NCBI RefSeq assembly: GCF_017357865.1
Contig: NZ_CP060096.1
Location: forward strand, 124,001 to 188,000
Direction of reading: 5' to 3'
DNA from: Aceticella autotrophica
GTDB taxonomy: Bacteria > Bacillota > Thermoanaerobacteria > Thermoanaerobacterales > Thermoanaerobacteraceae
Length of the DNA stretch: 64,000 nt
This document shows, in pieces, positions 8,236-39,560 of the stretch. Numbering within the stretch: position 1 is the first letter of the stretch; each line of letters starts with the position of its first letter. The translations under genes were made by a program, and so were the position numbers. The notes below the pieces were generated by a model. It did no database searches. It was not told the origin of the DNA and worked only from the letters and a program-made list of their open reading frames with translations.

Positions 8236-9759
8236 ATGCAAACAGATACCATCAGCTATGATAGGTTGATAGGGAAGGAAGATAGTCAGGCTCTTGTAGA
8301 AAATGATATTATTGTGCCGGAGGATGAACCCGATGTATTAAATGTAATAGCAGTAAATGCATTGACAATAATAAACAATATTGAGGCTGATGAGGGGAAA
8401 ATTCATATTGACGGTGAATTAAGGCTTAATATATTATATACACCAGATAAAAAAGGTAGTTTAATAAAAATCGATAAATCTATAGATTTTAGTCATTTTT
8501 TTGAAGTAGAAGGGTGTGATAGTAAGTGCCGTGCACTTGTAGCTGCAAGGGTCGAGCATGTGGACTATTCGGTCATCAACAGCAGGAAAATAAACATAAA
8601 AGCTATTTTAAGCATTTCCGGCAGCGTATTTTCAAAAGAAATGAAAGACATCGTGGTTAATATAGAGGATATTGAAGATATGGAGTATTTGAAAAAAACA
8701 ATTAAATATCTTAATACAATAGGTCAGAACGATGTAGAAACATTTTTAAAAGAACAGATAAAAATACCTGACGGTGCACTTGAAATAGATAGAATAATAA
8801 AAGTTGATACAATTATTAAATCTGATGAATATAGAATAACTGATAATAGGGTAATGATACAGGGGAATATACATGCGGTTGTTCTTTATACTACAAAGAA
8901 TAAAGGGGAATTTGAAAAGCTGGAATGCGATTTAAATTATGATAATTTTATTGAAATTCCAGGGGCATTAAGTTATATGAATGCTAAAACAAATGAAGCA
9001 ATAATAGAGAAAAATGTGGAAGTTTTAGAGGATGACAACGGTGAAAATAGGATTCTAAACATAGAACTTGTAGTAAAGACAAATGCCGTTGTAACAGAGA
9101 TAGAGGAAAGAGAAATACCTGTTGATGTTTACAGCATAACGAGAAATATTGAACCTGAAAGAGAAATTATTACAACGATTAATAGAAGTGTTGGCGCTAC
9201 ATCACAGGTTATATTAAAAGAAGCAATAGAGTTGAAAAATAATGCCAGGAAAATAATTGATATAATTGCATATCCGGTGATATCAAACTATACTATGAGT
9301 GATAAAAAAGTTCTAATAGAGGGTGTTATTGATTATAATGCAATGTATTTAAATGATGAGGGATATATCAATTCAAGTAAAGGTGAATTTCCGTTTAAAA
9401 CATTTGTAGATGTACAAAATGATGAAGGTGTACCTTTTTTAGATTTAAAAATCTCCCATGTGTCTTATGAGATAATTGCAATGAAAGAAGTAGAAATGAA
9501 ATTTGTAATGGATGTATATGTTGATATTTTTTATGAAGAAAGTTTTGATGTACTAACAGATATAAAAGAGGTTGAAGAGGGACGATATGAAAAAAACAAA
9601 CATAGTATTACGATATATATGGTCCAAAAGAATGATAATCTATGGGATATAGCAAAAAAATACAGGACTTCTAAGGATGATATACTAAATATCAATGAAA
9701 TAAATGATGAGAAGCTGATAGCAGGAACAAAGCTTATAATTCCGATTAAAGCACAATAA
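8236..9759 (+). CDS. SipL-like SPOCS (DUF3794) protein with C-terminal LysM domain
   Basis: The 507-residue protein has no signal peptide. Most of it consists of repeated DUF3794/SPOCS-type beta modules (about residues 10-440; recognisable where INIKAILSISG, VMIQGNIHAVVLYTT and VLIEGVIDYNAMYL recur). The last 50 residues are a LysM domain: YMVQKNDNLWDIAKKY through AGTKLIIPI. This architecture and length match Clostridioides SipL, which binds SpoIVA through its LysM domain to build the coat basement layer around the forespore. TAAGGAGG gives a strong ribosome site. It stands alone between terminators of veg and itself. Confidence 0.88.
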   Translation: MQTDTISYDRLIGKEDSQALVENDIIVPEDEPDVLNVIAVNALTIINNIEADEGKIHIDGELRLNILYTPDKKGSLIKIDKSIDFSHFFEVEGCDSKCRALVAARVEHVDYSVINSRKINIKAILSISGSVFSKEMKDIVVNIEDIEDMEYLKKTIKYLNTIGQNDVETFLKEQIKIPDGALEIDRIIKVDTIIKSDEYRITDNRVMIQGNIHAVVLYTTKNKGEFEKLECDLNYDNFIEIPGALSYMNAKTNEAIIEKNVEVLEDDNGENRILNIELVVKTNAVVTEIEEREIPVDVYSITRNIEPEREIITTINRSVGATSQVILKEAIELKNNARKIIDIIAYPVISNYTMSDKKVLIEGVIDYNAMYLNDEGYINSSKGEFPFKTFVDVQNDEGVPFLDLKISHVSYEIIAMKEVEMKFVMDVYVDIFYEESFDVLTDIKEVEEGRYEKNKHSITIYMVQKNDNLWDIAKKYRTSKDDILNINEINDEKLIAGTKLIIPIKAQ

Positions 9760-22607: not shown

Positions 22608-22666
22608 TATACTCATAAAAGTTATAAAAAAAATGTTTGTGGACATATTAAATATGAGGTGATTTT

Positions 22667-23485
22667 ATGCGCTCAATGTGGAAAGGTGCAATAAGTTTTG
22701 GACTTGTAAGTATCCCGATAAAATTGTATACAGCAACAGAAGACCATACGATACATTTTAGACAGCTTCATAGAGACTGTAAGTCGCCAATAAAATATGA
22801 AAAAATATGCCCTATATGCAACAGGTCTGTTTCTGATGACGAAATAGTACGAGGGTATGAATATGAGCCCGGCAAATTCGTAATTATAGATGATGAAGAC
22901 TTAGAGAGAATACCCATGTCAACAGTTAAAAGCATTGACATAGTAGATTTTACCGATATGGGGCAGATAGATCCTATATATTATGATAAAACATATTTTA
23001 TAGTGCCGGAAGACATTGGAACTAAGCCATATATTCTTTTGATAGATTCAATGAAAGCCACAAACCGTGTTGCGATAGCAAAGGTTGTAATAAGGTCAAA
23101 GCAGGACCTTGCATGTATAAGAGTATATAATGAAAAATACATGGTTATGGAAACAATGCATTTTCCTGATGAAATAAAAAGTACAACGCAGCTTCCTCCT
23201 TTAAGAGAAGTCAGCTTACATGAGGATGAAATGAAAATGGCAAAACAGCTGATTGATACACTTACATCTGAATTTAAACCTGAAAAGTATGATGATAATT
23301 ATAGAAAATCACTTATTGAAATTATTGAGTCAAAGATACAGAATAGGAATGTAGAAATCCACGAAAAAGCACCTGCAGCTGATAATGTTCTTGACTTAGT
23401 AAGCGCTTTAAAAGCGAGTATTGAATCGGTAAAAAATGAAAATGAAGAAAAACCAAAAAGAGGCCGCAAAAGAAAAGGTGCATAA
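22667..23485 (+). CDS. ku: Ku protein for non-homologous end joining
   Basis: Starts MRSMWKGAISFGLVSIPIKL, the invariant bacterial Ku N terminus; the CPICNRSVSDDEIVRGYEY and PYILLIDSMKATNRVAIAKV segments are also typical. It has 272 residues and ends in a basic tail (KPKRGRKRKGA) that in relatives helps DNA binding and recruits the ligase. Ku dimers ring broken DNA ends. The gene is 18 bases before the ligase gene, so both form a two-gene repair operon, which in spores would act at outgrowth. Confidence 0.95.
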   Translation: MRSMWKGAISFGLVSIPIKLYTATEDHTIHFRQLHRDCKSPIKYEKICPICNRSVSDDEIVRGYEYEPGKFVIIDDEDLERIPMSTVKSIDIVDFTDMGQIDPIYYDKTYFIVPEDIGTKPYILLIDSMKATNRVAIAKVVIRSKQDLACIRVYNEKYMVMETMHFPDEIKSTTQLPPLREVSLHEDEMKMAKQLIDTLTSEFKPEKYDDNYRKSLIEIIESKIQNRNVEIHEKAPAADNVLDLVSALKASIESVKNENEEKPKRGRKRKGA

Positions 23486-23503
23486 AAAGAAGGAGAAAAT
23501 ACT

Positions 23504-24427
23504 ATGTCAATGATGGATGAAAGAATATCCCCTATGCTGGCATCATCTGGTGAACCATTTGAAAATCCTGATTGGATATATGAAATAAAGTGGGACGGCT
23601 CCAGAACAATCGCTTTTCTTTCAGATAAAACGCGCCTTCAGGATAGAAGGCTTGTTGATATAACTTATCAATTTCCTGATCTATCATTACTTCACAAACA
23701 TATAAAAGCAAGAGAAGCAATACTTGACGGTGAGCTTATTGTTTTAAAAAACGGGAAACCCAGCTATAAAAGCATTATGTCAAGAAAATATCAGCAAAAT
23801 TTAATAAAAATAAATCTTTTAAGCAAAACAATGCCCGCTGTTTTTATAACCTGGGACATACTATATCTCGACGGCAAACCACTTATTGAGTTGCCATTGA
23901 TTGAAAGAAAATCCTACCTGAAAAAAGTATTTAAACAAAGCGAAATTGTGAAAATATCTGATTTTATATTTGAACACGGAAAAATCCTTTTTGAAGAAAC
24001 GGGTAAAAAGGGTCTCGAAGGAGTTATGGCCAAAAAAGCTGATTCAAAATATTTGATAGGCAAAAGAAGCAGGCTTTGGCTAAAACTCAAGCACTTTATT
24101 GTATTAAATGCTGTTATTATTGGATACAGAACGGATAAGACTGCTCTTATTTTAGGACTTTATGATGATGAAAATAATCTGATACAGATCGGAAGCTGTG
24201 AATCCGGTCTATCTAATAAAGAACTATCGGCATTTTATGAAGTTATAGATAATATAAAAGTTTTAGATGATTATTACAAATATAAAGAAAAAAATGTACA
24301 GTGGTTAAAACCAATACTTACATGCAAAGTCAGGTTTATGGAATGGTCTGAAAATATGAAGATGAGAGCTCCTTCTTTCATTCAATTTGAGCATAATGTC
24401 AGGCCTGAAGAATGCAGATTTGAATAA
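23504..24427 (+). CDS. ligD: ATP-dependent DNA ligase (LigD ligase domain, stand-alone)
   Basis: A 307-residue ligase with the nucleotidyl-lysine motif YEIKWDGSR near residue 27, LDGELIVL, GLEGVMAKKADSKYLIGKRS and the C-terminal OB domain (WLKLKHFIVLNAVIIGYR onward). It corresponds to the ligase module of LigD only; polymerase and phosphoesterase modules are absent here. It would seal Ku-bound breaks. AGAAGGAG precedes ATG 23504. Confidence 0.92.
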   Translation: MSMMDERISPMLASSGEPFENPDWIYEIKWDGSRTIAFLSDKTRLQDRRLVDITYQFPDLSLLHKHIKAREAILDGELIVLKNGKPSYKSIMSRKYQQNLIKINLLSKTMPAVFITWDILYLDGKPLIELPLIERKSYLKKVFKQSEIVKISDFIFEHGKILFEETGKKGLEGVMAKKADSKYLIGKRSRLWLKLKHFIVLNAVIIGYRTDKTALILGLYDDENNLIQIGSCESGLSNKELSAFYEVIDNIKVLDDYYKYKEKNVQWLKPILTCKVRFMEWSENMKMRAPSFIQFEHNVRPEECRFE

Positions 24428-32683: not shown

Positions 32684-34705
32684 ATTTTAATCTGACCATA
32701 TTGGAATTGAAACGATAGAAAAAGCCTTCAGACACGTTCATCAAAACAGATTTTAATCTGACCATATTGGAATTGAAACGTTTATACTGAAGACAGCAAT
32801 ACAGCTGCTATTTTGATTTTAATCTGACCATATTGGAATTGAAACTCCCATAAGCCTTTTACAAATTCCTTTTCCGCAAAATTTTAATCTGACCATATTG
32901 GAATTGAAACTAGCTATATACGATACAAGCGTAACACAACCGGATAATTTTAATCTGACCATATTGGAATTGAAACTTAATGCCATGCAAACCTTGTAAA
33001 GCAAGGAAATTATATTTTAATCTGACCATATTGGAATTGAAACTATGTGTCAGGGAAAAAAAGACACAGGTTCCTGCCGATTTTAATCTGACCATATTGG
33101 AATTGAAACTCTTTAGTGTTAACTGCGGTTTGAAGAATCTTAACAATTTTAATCTGACCATATTGGAATTGAAACTAATAAAAACACCTCCTATAATTTT
33201 CTACTTTAATAGATTTTAATCTGACCATATTGGAATTGAAACTCTTTTTTGTATAATCTGTCCCTTATGGCACTTGTAATTTTAATCTGACCATATTGGA
33301 ATTGAAACTGCCTCCCTCTTTTCTGGAAGGGCTTCCCATAGAGCCTATTTTAATCTGACCATATTGGAATTGAAACTGTCCTTTTATTTTCTTATCCCTA
33401 TTTCTTATCGCATCAATTTTAATCTGACCATATTGGAATTGAAACTTGCTTCTACTGAACGTGACAACTGTACAAGTCTTACATTTTAATCTGACCATAT
33501 TGGAATTGAAACTAAATTTTGTAAATTTTTCTTTCATATTTAACATTTTATTTTAATCTGACCATATTGGAATTGAAACTCATTTGAGAAGGAATTATAC
33601 TATGTCTTGAAAACATTTTAATCTGACCATATTGGAATTGAAACCAAAGCAAAGGTGGCACTACTGTTCCGGATAATCTTGATTTTAATCTGACCATATT
33701 GGAATTGAAACTAAAAAAGCTGTTGCAGAAGGATATAACTGCCAGCGATTTTAATCTGACCATATTGGAATTGAAACTTGGGAAAAAGGACGTATAGCAA
33801 ATGTACTTTTAAAATTTTAATCTGACCATATTGGAATTGAAACGAAATAAGCAGTATTGAGTATCAACAAGGCGAATTGATTTTAATCTGACCATATTGG
33901 AATTGAAACGTGGAGTCTTGTGTCTGATGACAACCTGTAGGCTGTATTTTAATCTGACCATATTGGAATTGAAACTTTTCCTTTATCTTGAAAAAAAACC
34001 TGGAATTCCTTTATTTTAATCTGACCATATTGGAATTGAAACGAAATAAGCAGTATTGAGTATCAACAAGGCGAATTGATTTTAATCTGACCATATTGGA
34101 ATTGAAACGTGGAGTCTTGTGTCTGATGACAACCTGTAGGCTGTATTTTAATCTGACCATATTGGAATTGAAACTTTTCCTTTATCTTGAAAAAAACCTG
34201 GAATTCCTTTATTTTAATCTGACCATATTGGAATTGAAACGAAATAAGCAGTATTGAGTATCAACAAGGCGAATTGATTTTAATCTGACCATATTGGAAT
34301 TGAAACGTGGAGTCTTGTGTCTGATGACAACCTGTAGGCTGTATTTTAATCTGACCATATTGGAATTGAAACCCTGCTTCACAGGAGTTGATTCAAGCAG
34401 GCAAAGACCATTTTAATCTGACCATATTGGAATTGAAACTGGGGACTTCTTTTACGATTTCGGGGATTTGTCGCCAATTTTAATCTGACCATATTGGAAT
34501 TGAAACGAAATAAGCAGTATTGAGTATCAACAAGGCGAATTGATTTTAATCTGACCATATTGGAATTGAAACTTTATTTTACAAGGCATATCGATTACTC
34601 TTGATATAAATTTTAATCTGACCATATTGGAATTGAAACTCGTACCTATCCCCCCACCCGGCAAAAGATGCAGGAATTTTAATCTGACCATATTGGAATT
34701 GAAAC
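32684..34705 (+). CRISPR. CRISPR array: 31 identical 30-bp repeats, 30 spacers
   Basis: The repeat starts ATTTTAATCTGACC and ends TTGGAATTGAAAC; every copy I read is identical, including the last. Repeat starts are 32684, 32750, 32816, 32881, 32947, 33014, 33080, 33146, 33213, 33279, 33347, 33416, 33483, 33550, 33615, 33682, 33748, 33814, 33880, 33946, 34013, 34079, 34145, 34211, 34277, 34343, 34410, 34477, 34543, 34610 and 34676. Spacers are 35-39 bp. The GAAAC end, adjacent leader and cas6 position show + strand transcription with the newest spacers at the left. Spacers 18-25 contain a duplicated three-spacer block, and spacer 28 is a further copy of its first member. Confidence 0.98.
33844..34542 (+). 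repeat. Duplicated spacer block inside the CRISPR array (A-B-C, A-B-C', A-B, D, E, A)
   Basis: Spacer A (begins GAAATAAGCAGTATTGAG) occurs at 33844, 34043, 34241 and 34507. Spacer B (begins GTGGAGTCTTGTGTCTG) occurs at 33910, 34109 and 34307. Spacer C (begins TTTTCCTTTATCTTG) occurs at 33976 and 34175, differing by one A in a run of 8 versus 7. The unit period is 199 or 198 bases. Confidence 0.95.
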
Positions 34706-34742
34706 CTTGAAACAAGATAAATTTTATGGATAGTAATATTAT

Positions 34743-38392: not shown

Positions 38393-39025
38393 ATGAATAT
38401 AAAATGGTTTGGACATGCTTGCTTTAAAATAACGTCTGATAATGGTATTTCAATTGTTACTGATCCATTTGATAAATCTGTTGGTTATCCTATGCCTGAT
38501 GTTACAGCAGATATTGTTACATCTTCACATTCACATTATGATCATAATTATTTTAAAGCTGTAAAAGGAAAATTTGAAATTGTAAATACACCTGGAGACC
38601 ATCTTGTAAAAGGTATACATATAAAGGGGATTAATACATTTCATGATGATGAGTATGGTGCTAAAAGAGGTAAAAATATAGTATTTTTGATGAAAATTGA
38701 TGGTATGAATTTATGTCATGCAGGAGATTTGGGGCATTTACTGACAGAAGAACAGATAAATGAGATAGGTTCTGTAGATATTCTTTTGATACCTGTAGGA
38801 GGTTTTTATACAATTGATGACAGGCAGGCTGTTAAAGTGATGGAGCAATTAAAGCCTAAGCTTACTATTCCAATGCACTATAAAACACCGGCAATTAATT
38901 TTCCTATAGAAACAGCGGATAATTTTTTAAAAATGACCGGCGGTGAGAAAATATCATCAACAGAAATAAATATTAATAAACAGGATTTAGAAGGTCAGCC
39001 AAAAGTAATTGCATTGAGTTATTGA
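38393..39025 (+). CDS. MBL-fold metal-dependent hydrolase (UlaG/UPF0173-like)
   Basis: A 210-residue metallo-beta-lactamase fold protein: IKWFGHACFKITSDNGISIV, TDPFD, SSHSHYDHNYF (metal-binding HxHxDH), NTFHDDEYG, LCHAGDLGHLL and PMHYKTP. Substrate is not predictable. ATG 38393 is chosen because TAGGAGGTG lies directly upstream; a GTG at 38384 falls inside that site. TATAAT at 38366 marks a likely promoter. Confidence 0.85.
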   Translation: MNIKWFGHACFKITSDNGISIVTDPFDKSVGYPMPDVTADIVTSSHSHYDHNYFKAVKGKFEIVNTPGDHLVKGIHIKGINTFHDDEYGAKRGKNIVFLMKIDGMNLCHAGDLGHLLTEEQINEIGSVDILLIPVGGFYTIDDRQAVKVMEQLKPKLTIPMHYKTPAINFPIETADNFLKMTGGEKISSTEININKQDLEGQPKVIALSY

Positions 39026-39118
39026 TTTTTCATTATCACGAGCATAAGCAAGCCTTAAATATTTAGAAAATTTTTTGTTTATGAATAAAAAAAATTTGTC
39101 TGGGAAATATAATATTAT

Positions 39119-39476
39119 AAGGTTCGCAATGGTTGAGCCAAGATTACTGCAGGATGGAAGTTCTGCTGTAGTCGGCTGAAGATTGGCATTTAATCTTAGG
39201 GTTAGATGTTAGTCGGAGGGCAGATTATAATATGTTCTATTCTTAAAGGGATGTATTATAGTCGAGCTAAGACTGTTACAGGTGCTATATGTCAACAGTA
39301 CTATGTACTTATGACAGAAGCATGGTACAGCTTAAAAATTGTATCAGCTTCTTAAGTATCTGTAATAGTCGAGCATAGGTCTATATGAGTTTTAAAATAT
39401 CTTGTAAATTGCTTTATAAGCATATTTACAGGTAAAGAGATTTATATAGGCTGAAGCGAAGATCATTGCGGACCTT
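39119..39476 (+). ncRNA. Structured noncoding RNA candidate of about 358 nt with paired ends
   Basis: A 530-base gap between two + strand genes has no plausible ORF but rich pairing. The ends AAGGTTCGCAATG (39119-39131) and CATTGCGGACCTT (39464-39476) form a 13-bp stem (one G-U), and T7 follows. Internal hairpins include ACTGCAGGA/TTCTGCTGT (39146-39168), AAGATT/AATCTT (39179-39197), ACTGTT/AACAGT (39270-39298), a GAAGC/GCTTC stem (39318-39352), and TTGTAAATTGCTT/AAGCATATTTACA (39402-39431). TAGTCGG or TAGTCGA occurs four times (39169, 39210, 39259, 39366). TATAAT-like strings at 39108-39117 lie just upstream. It does not match tmRNA, RNase P, SRP or 6S RNA as I know them. Confidence 0.7.
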
Positions 39477-39560
39477 ATTTTTTTGTTGTTTTATGGTATT
39501 TTTTTCAAAAGCATTGTGTTATAATAAATATGTTATTAAATTTTTAAAAGGTGATTAGTG

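Follow-up and report, generated by a model that had tools for sequence, protein, structure and literature searches.

A widespread and apparently undescribed large structured RNA with a forespore-type promoter in endospore-forming Bacillota

Only a few large, structured RNAs without known function have been found in bacteria, and few developmental programmes are as well studied as sporulation. CsfG is a forespore sRNA of the sigma-F/sigma-G class, conserved in endospore formers and equipped with its own promoter (PMC9147052). Bvs196/S357 of Bacillus is a stand-alone, strongly folded sigma-F/sigma-G RNA of 294 nt in the hinT–ecsA gap (PMC9147052). OLE, ROOL and GOLLD form RNA-only assemblies (PMC12286853), and the smtA motif/Soda Lake RNA is a complex, covarying RNA of >350 nt with unknown function (PMC11109978). 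The RNA described here shares with CsfG (ylbH, RF00516) a sigma-F/sigma-G-type promoter, in our case judged by sequence only. CsfG, however, is 122–136 nt long, has CU-rich loops and is encoded separately, elsewhere in the genome; cmscan with RF00516 gave no match to our RNA even at E 10. Bvs196/S357 differs by a much lower folding energy, and neither a six-way junction nor linkers of the kind reported below have been described for it. Nor is its hinT–ecsA location shared: our copy lies between Lactamase_B_3 and CN_hydrolase genes, and the surroundings differ again in other lineages. OLE, ROOL and GOLLD are similar in being large, ornate and covarying, with many helices. To our knowledge, none of the three has a forespore promoter or such a six-way junction. 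The smtA motif/Soda Lake RNA is confined to Thioalkalivibrio, upstream of smtA, and no relation to it was found. Forespore sRNAs as such, like large ornate RNAs, are nothing new; what would be new is the class of RNA.

The RNA occupies positions 39117–39478 on the + strand of the window, by which we mean the whole 64-kb stretch of DNA analysed. In its 362 nt, a closing stem of 18 bp and a further five arms surround a six-way junction (Table 1). It lies within a 532-nt gap (39026–39557) flanked by two ORFs, a Lactamase_B_3 hydrolase gene ending at 39025 and a carbon-nitrogen hydrolase (CN_hydrolase) gene starting at 39558. The initial annotation had drawn here, in an ORF-free gap of about 530 bases, a 13-bp closing stem followed by seven T, at least five internal hairpins and TAGTCGR repeats at 39169, 39210, 39259 and 39366. 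The gap, the T run and exactly these four repeat positions were recovered, and the hairpins correspond to five arms, two of which carry further hairpins; the closing stem is real, but its length had been understated. TAGTCGR has eight matches on both strands of the window, four of them within the RNA, because the motif coincides with helix ends and the start of recurring junction linkers (GAGCnAAG-like). The minimum free energy (MFE) of the RNA is −156.4 kcal/mol versus −87.6 ± 5.7 kcal/mol for dinucleotide shuffles (z −12.1; none of 100 shuffles equals it), and the opposite strand folds much more weakly (−81.8 kcal/mol). In four family members z lies between −12 and −18. No conserved ORF was found in the RNA, and a coding function was rejected, as the longest ORFs are about as long as those seen in shuffled sequence. 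The 5′ strand of P1 is able to fold on itself (GGGUUC with GAGCCC), e.g. in L038 and L062, as seen in some MFE folds; such a modelled hairpin could possibly be a co-transcriptional intermediate or a switch. A K-turn at the internal loop between P1 and the linker was also considered by eye and discarded because the pairing register does not fit.

Table 1. Elements of the RNA and of its putative promoter, in window coordinates
Feature	Position	Strand	Basis or remark
−35 element GAATA of a putative forespore (sigma-F/sigma-G type) promoter	39083..39087	+	63-member matrix; 14.4 bits together with the −10 element
−10 element GGGAAATATA, spacer 14 nt	39102..39111	+	63-member matrix
Predicted transcription start	about 39117–39119	+	inferred; first base of closing stem
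P1 closing stem, 5′ strand	39117..39134	+	pairs with 39461–39478, 18 bp; covariation
Junction linker J12, GAGCCAA	39135..39141	+	invariant or nearly so
Arm P2, hairpin	39142..39173	+	fold, covariation
Junction linker J23, family form GGCCAAAG	39174..39180	+	alignment
Arm P3, 15-bp hairpin	39181..39214	+	fold, covariation
Junction linker J34, family form GGCGGGCAG	39215..39222	+	alignment
Arm P4, 16 bp	39223..39263	+	fold, covariation
Junction linker J45, GAGCTAAG	39264..39270	+	alignment
Arm P5, 16-bp stem leading to a three-way junction with two hairpins (39291–39315, 39316–39352)	39271..39370	+	
Junction linker J56, GAGCATAG in window copy	39371..39377	+	alignment
Arm P6, 16-bp stem and apical hairpin (39401–39432)	39378..39452	+	fold, covariation
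Junction linker J61, GAAGCGAAG	39453..39460	+	alignment
P1 closing stem, 3′ strand	39461..39478	+	fold
Stretch of seven T where P1 ends	39478..39484	+	sequence

The fold is strongly supported by comparative evidence. Among 19 close relatives, 38 of 132 pairs have changed on both sides, with few broken cells. In an alignment of 72 diverse members (A3), the two bases can pair in 95.8% of 10610 pair cells, and both sides have changed in 110 of 150 pairs. The covariation score of A3 is 0.553, compared with 0.250 ± 0.003 after shuffling and 0.08–0.14 with slid partners, and all five measures lie above all 500 shuffles (0/500). When partners are slid by 1–3 columns, pairing falls to 30–43%; this control favours the structure, which was itself drawn from the same alignment, but the gap is very wide nonetheless. 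The end stem proposed from the single sequence (helix 1) does covary: 12 of its 17 pairs have changed on both sides and 96.9% of its cells are paired. Furthermore, A3 contains 2686 G-U cells versus 84 A-C cells (32:1), and because the two are swapped on the complementary strand, this excess points to selection on the + strand as RNA. Outside the drawn helices, the top covarying pairs appear to reflect clade effects, with columns 229–273 beside the P5 junction as a possible exception.

The six linkers, in helix order GAGCCAAG, GGCCAAAG, GGCGGGCAG, GAGCTAAG, GAGCAHAG and GAAGCGAAG, are nearly invariant, purine-rich and mutually similar (GAGCnAAG-like). The hairpin loops of P2–P4 are variable among relatives, and the apical loop of P6 is of the GAAA type in most of them. 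Most relatives also have a second hairpin of ~15 bp in P4, which is absent from the window copy. A covariance model of the 5′ third of the RNA (R1) also recognises the 3′ part of that molecule, with E-values of 7e-6 in G020, 6e-6 in G022, 3e-4 in G008 and 0.08 in the window's genome. This is suggestive, but no more than that, of an RNA that may have arisen from repeated linker-plus-helix units.

BLASTN found the RNA in all 19 other searched genomes of the window's taxonomic family, although in G018 only its 3′ end is present, at a contig edge. Outside that family BLASTN returned no relative; the lone hit (L021) is a chance match within an apparent coding gene. The window's genome has a single copy, and throughout its family the locus is constant, ~40–210 nt after the same hydrolase gene and downstream of ddl–DUF1934–argS, with a variable following gene. 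Cis-regulation was rejected, since the RNA follows its constant neighbour and precedes a gene that is not the same throughout. Between lineages the neighbour genes differ, and no neighbour is fixed across the RNA family. A two-linker pattern scan of 84,980 species genomes returned 109 stretches, of which a profile confirms 70–80 as members. Many pattern hits (Halomonas, actinobacteria, proteobacteria) are due to chance, the profile finding none of these, and three hits on viral contigs are not members either. Confirmed members come from Thermoanaerobacter, Caldanaerobacter, Thermoanaerobacterium, Carboxydocella, Pelotomaculum, Desulfotomaculum, Desulfoscipio, Sporotomaculum, Lucifera, Pelosinus, Moorella, Dethiobacter and many uncultured Bacillota; a few metagenome-assembled genomes (MAGs) among them are titled as other phyla, possibly through mislabelling. 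Using R1, whose E-values are rough and which misses diverged members, we detected the RNA in 148 of 398 genomes from a phylum-wide sample and in 109 of 267 genera, a range far wider than first supposed. Copy counts per genome from R1 are inflated by its weak matching to the 3′ part of the same RNA. Family members are 350–420 nt long, and even diverged ones retain the closing stem, the arms and the promoter. The only hint that Bacillus and Clostridium do not have the RNA is that no such names appear in the results of the pattern scan.

Several copies depart from the standard architecture. L258 (G023:C2:153528-153630) is a miniature version of ~120 nt in which the closing stem and the forespore promoter are intact and most arms are gone; judging from it, the arms may be dispensable modules. 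L236 (G112) has linker-plus-arm units in a different arrangement, with two R1 matches within 370 bp, and in a Pelosinus MAG (L113, 1525–2052) ~120 bp of other sequence interrupts the RNA between P2 and P3. Pairs of near-identical RNA genes, each with its own promoter, occur in Sporotomaculum (L072, 684–1082 and 1192–1589, 508 bp apart) and close to each other in Pelotomaculum (L062, 214–626 and 2201–2613). Lucifera butyrica has RNA copies on four contigs. In Caldanaerobacter subterraneus (G008; L019/L031, ~9233–9291) a decayed P4–P5 fragment represents a second copy at another locus.

All 63 non-redundant members are preceded by G[ACT]AT[AG] and GGnCAnA[AC]TA separated by 14 or 15 nt (N14 in 52 members, N15 in 11), with the −10 element ending 0–5 nt before P1. 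The median score is 15.3 bits, compared with 6.6 for the 95th percentile of shuffled sequence, and among such sites on both window strands the promoter of the RNA ranks first. The matrix was derived from family promoters, the window's own among them, and the independent part of the evidence is the comparison with SASP genes of the same genomes, which have GTATA-N14-GGTTAAATTA and the like. The sigma-F form, GYATA...GGnnAnAnTR, overlaps the sigma-G form, GHATR...CATnHTA. In C. difficile the two consensi are likewise alike, and a G upstream of the −10 element is diagnostic (PMC3789822; PMC7438776). We thus assign the promoter to the forespore sigma-F/sigma-G form, an assignment for which the DNA sequence is the sole ground. 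The near-consensus −10 strings noted upstream in the initial annotation do exist, and the best-supported promoter there is of this forespore type. At the 3′ end, 71 of 79 members have a terminator, formed either by the stem with a U-run behind it or by an additional hairpin with a U-run, and P1 itself probably doubles as a putative intrinsic terminator. Of the 50 ORFs in the window, no more than two exceed 10 bits, namely, the hydrolase gene before the RNA and a Ku gene. The latter has a forespore-type promoter, TTATA-N14-GGACATATTA, just upstream (22622–22650) and is followed by an ATP-dependent DNA ligase gene (both within 22667–24427). Ku is a sigma-G gene in B. subtilis, and the Ku/ligase pair is likely, by its predicted promoter, to represent forespore-expressed non-homologous end joining (NHEJ) as in that species.

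The distribution of the RNA follows that of sporulation genes. SpoIVA is found in 336 of the 398 genomes, comprising 144 of 148 RNA-positive and 192 of 250 RNA-negative ones (Fisher p 3e-9). This cross-tabulation was made by hand without correction for relatedness, and the Fisher test overstates independence. Two of the four RNA-positive genomes without SpoIVA are only 61–75% complete, the other two being G112 (97%) and G358 (90%). The 192 SpoIVA-positive genomes without a match imply that the RNA is not needed for sporulation generally, with the reservation that R1 misses diverged members. Sigma-G is above the curated cut-off in all relatives except 13 genomes of family f4. Within f4, the tested genomes of genus g7 have neither the RNA nor CsfG, and their sigma-G is below the cut-off, whereas the sister genus g8 (G032) retains the RNA and a matching promoter although its sigma-G is likewise below the cut-off. 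The window's genome also has a CsfG-like RNA (RF00516) at G000:C1:1438278-1438403, which adjoins SASP genes (E 2.4e-7, below the gathering score). Taken together, the RNA is probably a forespore component of spore formation, its expression being inferred from the promoter and from gene co-occurrence.

No Rfam 15 family accounts for the RNA. In a cmscan of the window, Rfam 15 gave no match at the gathering score, and the RNA region yielded nothing of note at E up to 10. Rfam 15 likewise gave no match at the RNA in 18 further loci, ~12 of which hold relatives, nor to one strong family member at a relaxed threshold. In particular, no above-threshold match to OLE, ROOL, GOLLD, raiA, 6S, RNase P or tmRNA was found in the window or the sampled loci. 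We found no published description of the RNA, although literature coverage was partial and an earlier mention in a survey supplement cannot be excluded. The inference of a stand-alone, terminated non-coding RNA of a possibly undescribed class is thus supported by the lack of Rfam matches, the covarying homologues and the frequent terminators, and on present comparisons the RNA apparently represents an undescribed class of large non-coding RNA.

We consider it probable that this is an undescribed stand-alone forespore RNA of endospore-forming Bacillota, working in trans as a scaffold, either structural or protein-binding, with both expression and function being inferred. It would be transcribed independently in the forespore and would be long-lived, with both ends locked in P1 and little of it unpaired. 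Action in trans is inferred because neighbours differ between lineages, even though the locus and the hydrolase neighbour are constant within the window's family. A scaffold is preferred because the conserved unpaired bases, at the hub and in GNRA-type loops, are poor seeds and the fold is unusually rigid; this function is read from shape alone, and no protein partner has been identified. The hub linkers and GNRA-capped arms might dock protein subunits or other copies of the RNA, and the RNA might in this way contribute to spore maturation, dormancy or resistance. Such an RNA, ~400 nt long, covarying, preceded by a forespore promoter and found in >100 genera yet not in Rfam, would be a missing component of sporulation. 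Because cell type, timing and sigma factor are all predicted, the proposal is directly testable, and Thermoanaerobacterium saccharolyticum and Thermoanaerobacter are culturable. More tentatively, and with the odds in our judgement against it, the linker-plus-helix units could make up a pseudo-six-fold 'wheel' that, joined to further copies or to a forespore protein, forms a particle in the dormant spore. If so, it would be a dedicated structural RNA of endospores in >100 genera, overlooked because it seems to be absent from the model spore formers.

The most serious alternative, which we regard as unlikely, is a forespore regulatory sRNA that pairs with mRNAs as proposed for Bvs196, its rigid arms presenting short single-stranded seeds. 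The promoter class of the RNA is that of both Bvs196 and CsfG, and deletion of Bvs196, which binds spo0A and sspN-tlp mRNA in vitro, alters spore heat and UV resistance (PMC9147052). However, the conserved unpaired stretches of our RNA are short, purine-rich and placed inside the junction, unlike the CU-rich loops conserved in CsfG (PMC3574147), and the variability of the P2–P4 loops also speaks against seeds. By analogy with Bvs196, the nearest functional analogue, which is proposed to work so and affects spore resistance, an antisense role remains open. Rather improbable, judged from its published description alone, is distant homology to Bvs196/S357 itself, which would make the RNA a known one with a much wider range. 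The two are alike in size, stable fold, conserved stems with variable loops and a promoter ending ~4 nt before the start, but by BLASTN Bvs196 has been reported solely from Bacillus (PMC9147052). Moreover, at −82 kcal/mol its reported folding energy reaches only about half the value of the present family, and we did not notice hinT or ecsA beside any family member.

We give still less credence to an RNA of vegetative growth or general stress that is made with sigma-A or sigma-B and whose promoter likeness is incidental. A TATAAT string does lie just upstream in the window, and a consensus match by itself does not reveal the sigma factor used; yet −35 and −10 forms at fixed spacing are common to 63 of 63 members and the same as those of the SASP genes, no better site of this kind exists on either window strand, and RNA presence tracks sporulation genes. 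That the locus is a mobile or selfish repeat, or works as DNA, is scarcely credible: some genomes do have several copies (e.g. the Sporotomaculum pair and the four Lucifera contigs), but the window's family has one copy in one constant place, no match to the RNA was found in phages and plasmids, and the G-U pairs are strand-specific, their ratio to A-C largely refuting this reading.

Elsewhere in the window, a CRISPR array (33013–34719) comprises 26 repeats (ATTTTAATCTGACCATATTGGAATTGAAAC) with a period of ~66 bp. A three-spacer block at 33814–34012 recurs at 34013–34211 (96%) and in part at 34211–34409, indicating that spacers were duplicated in place.
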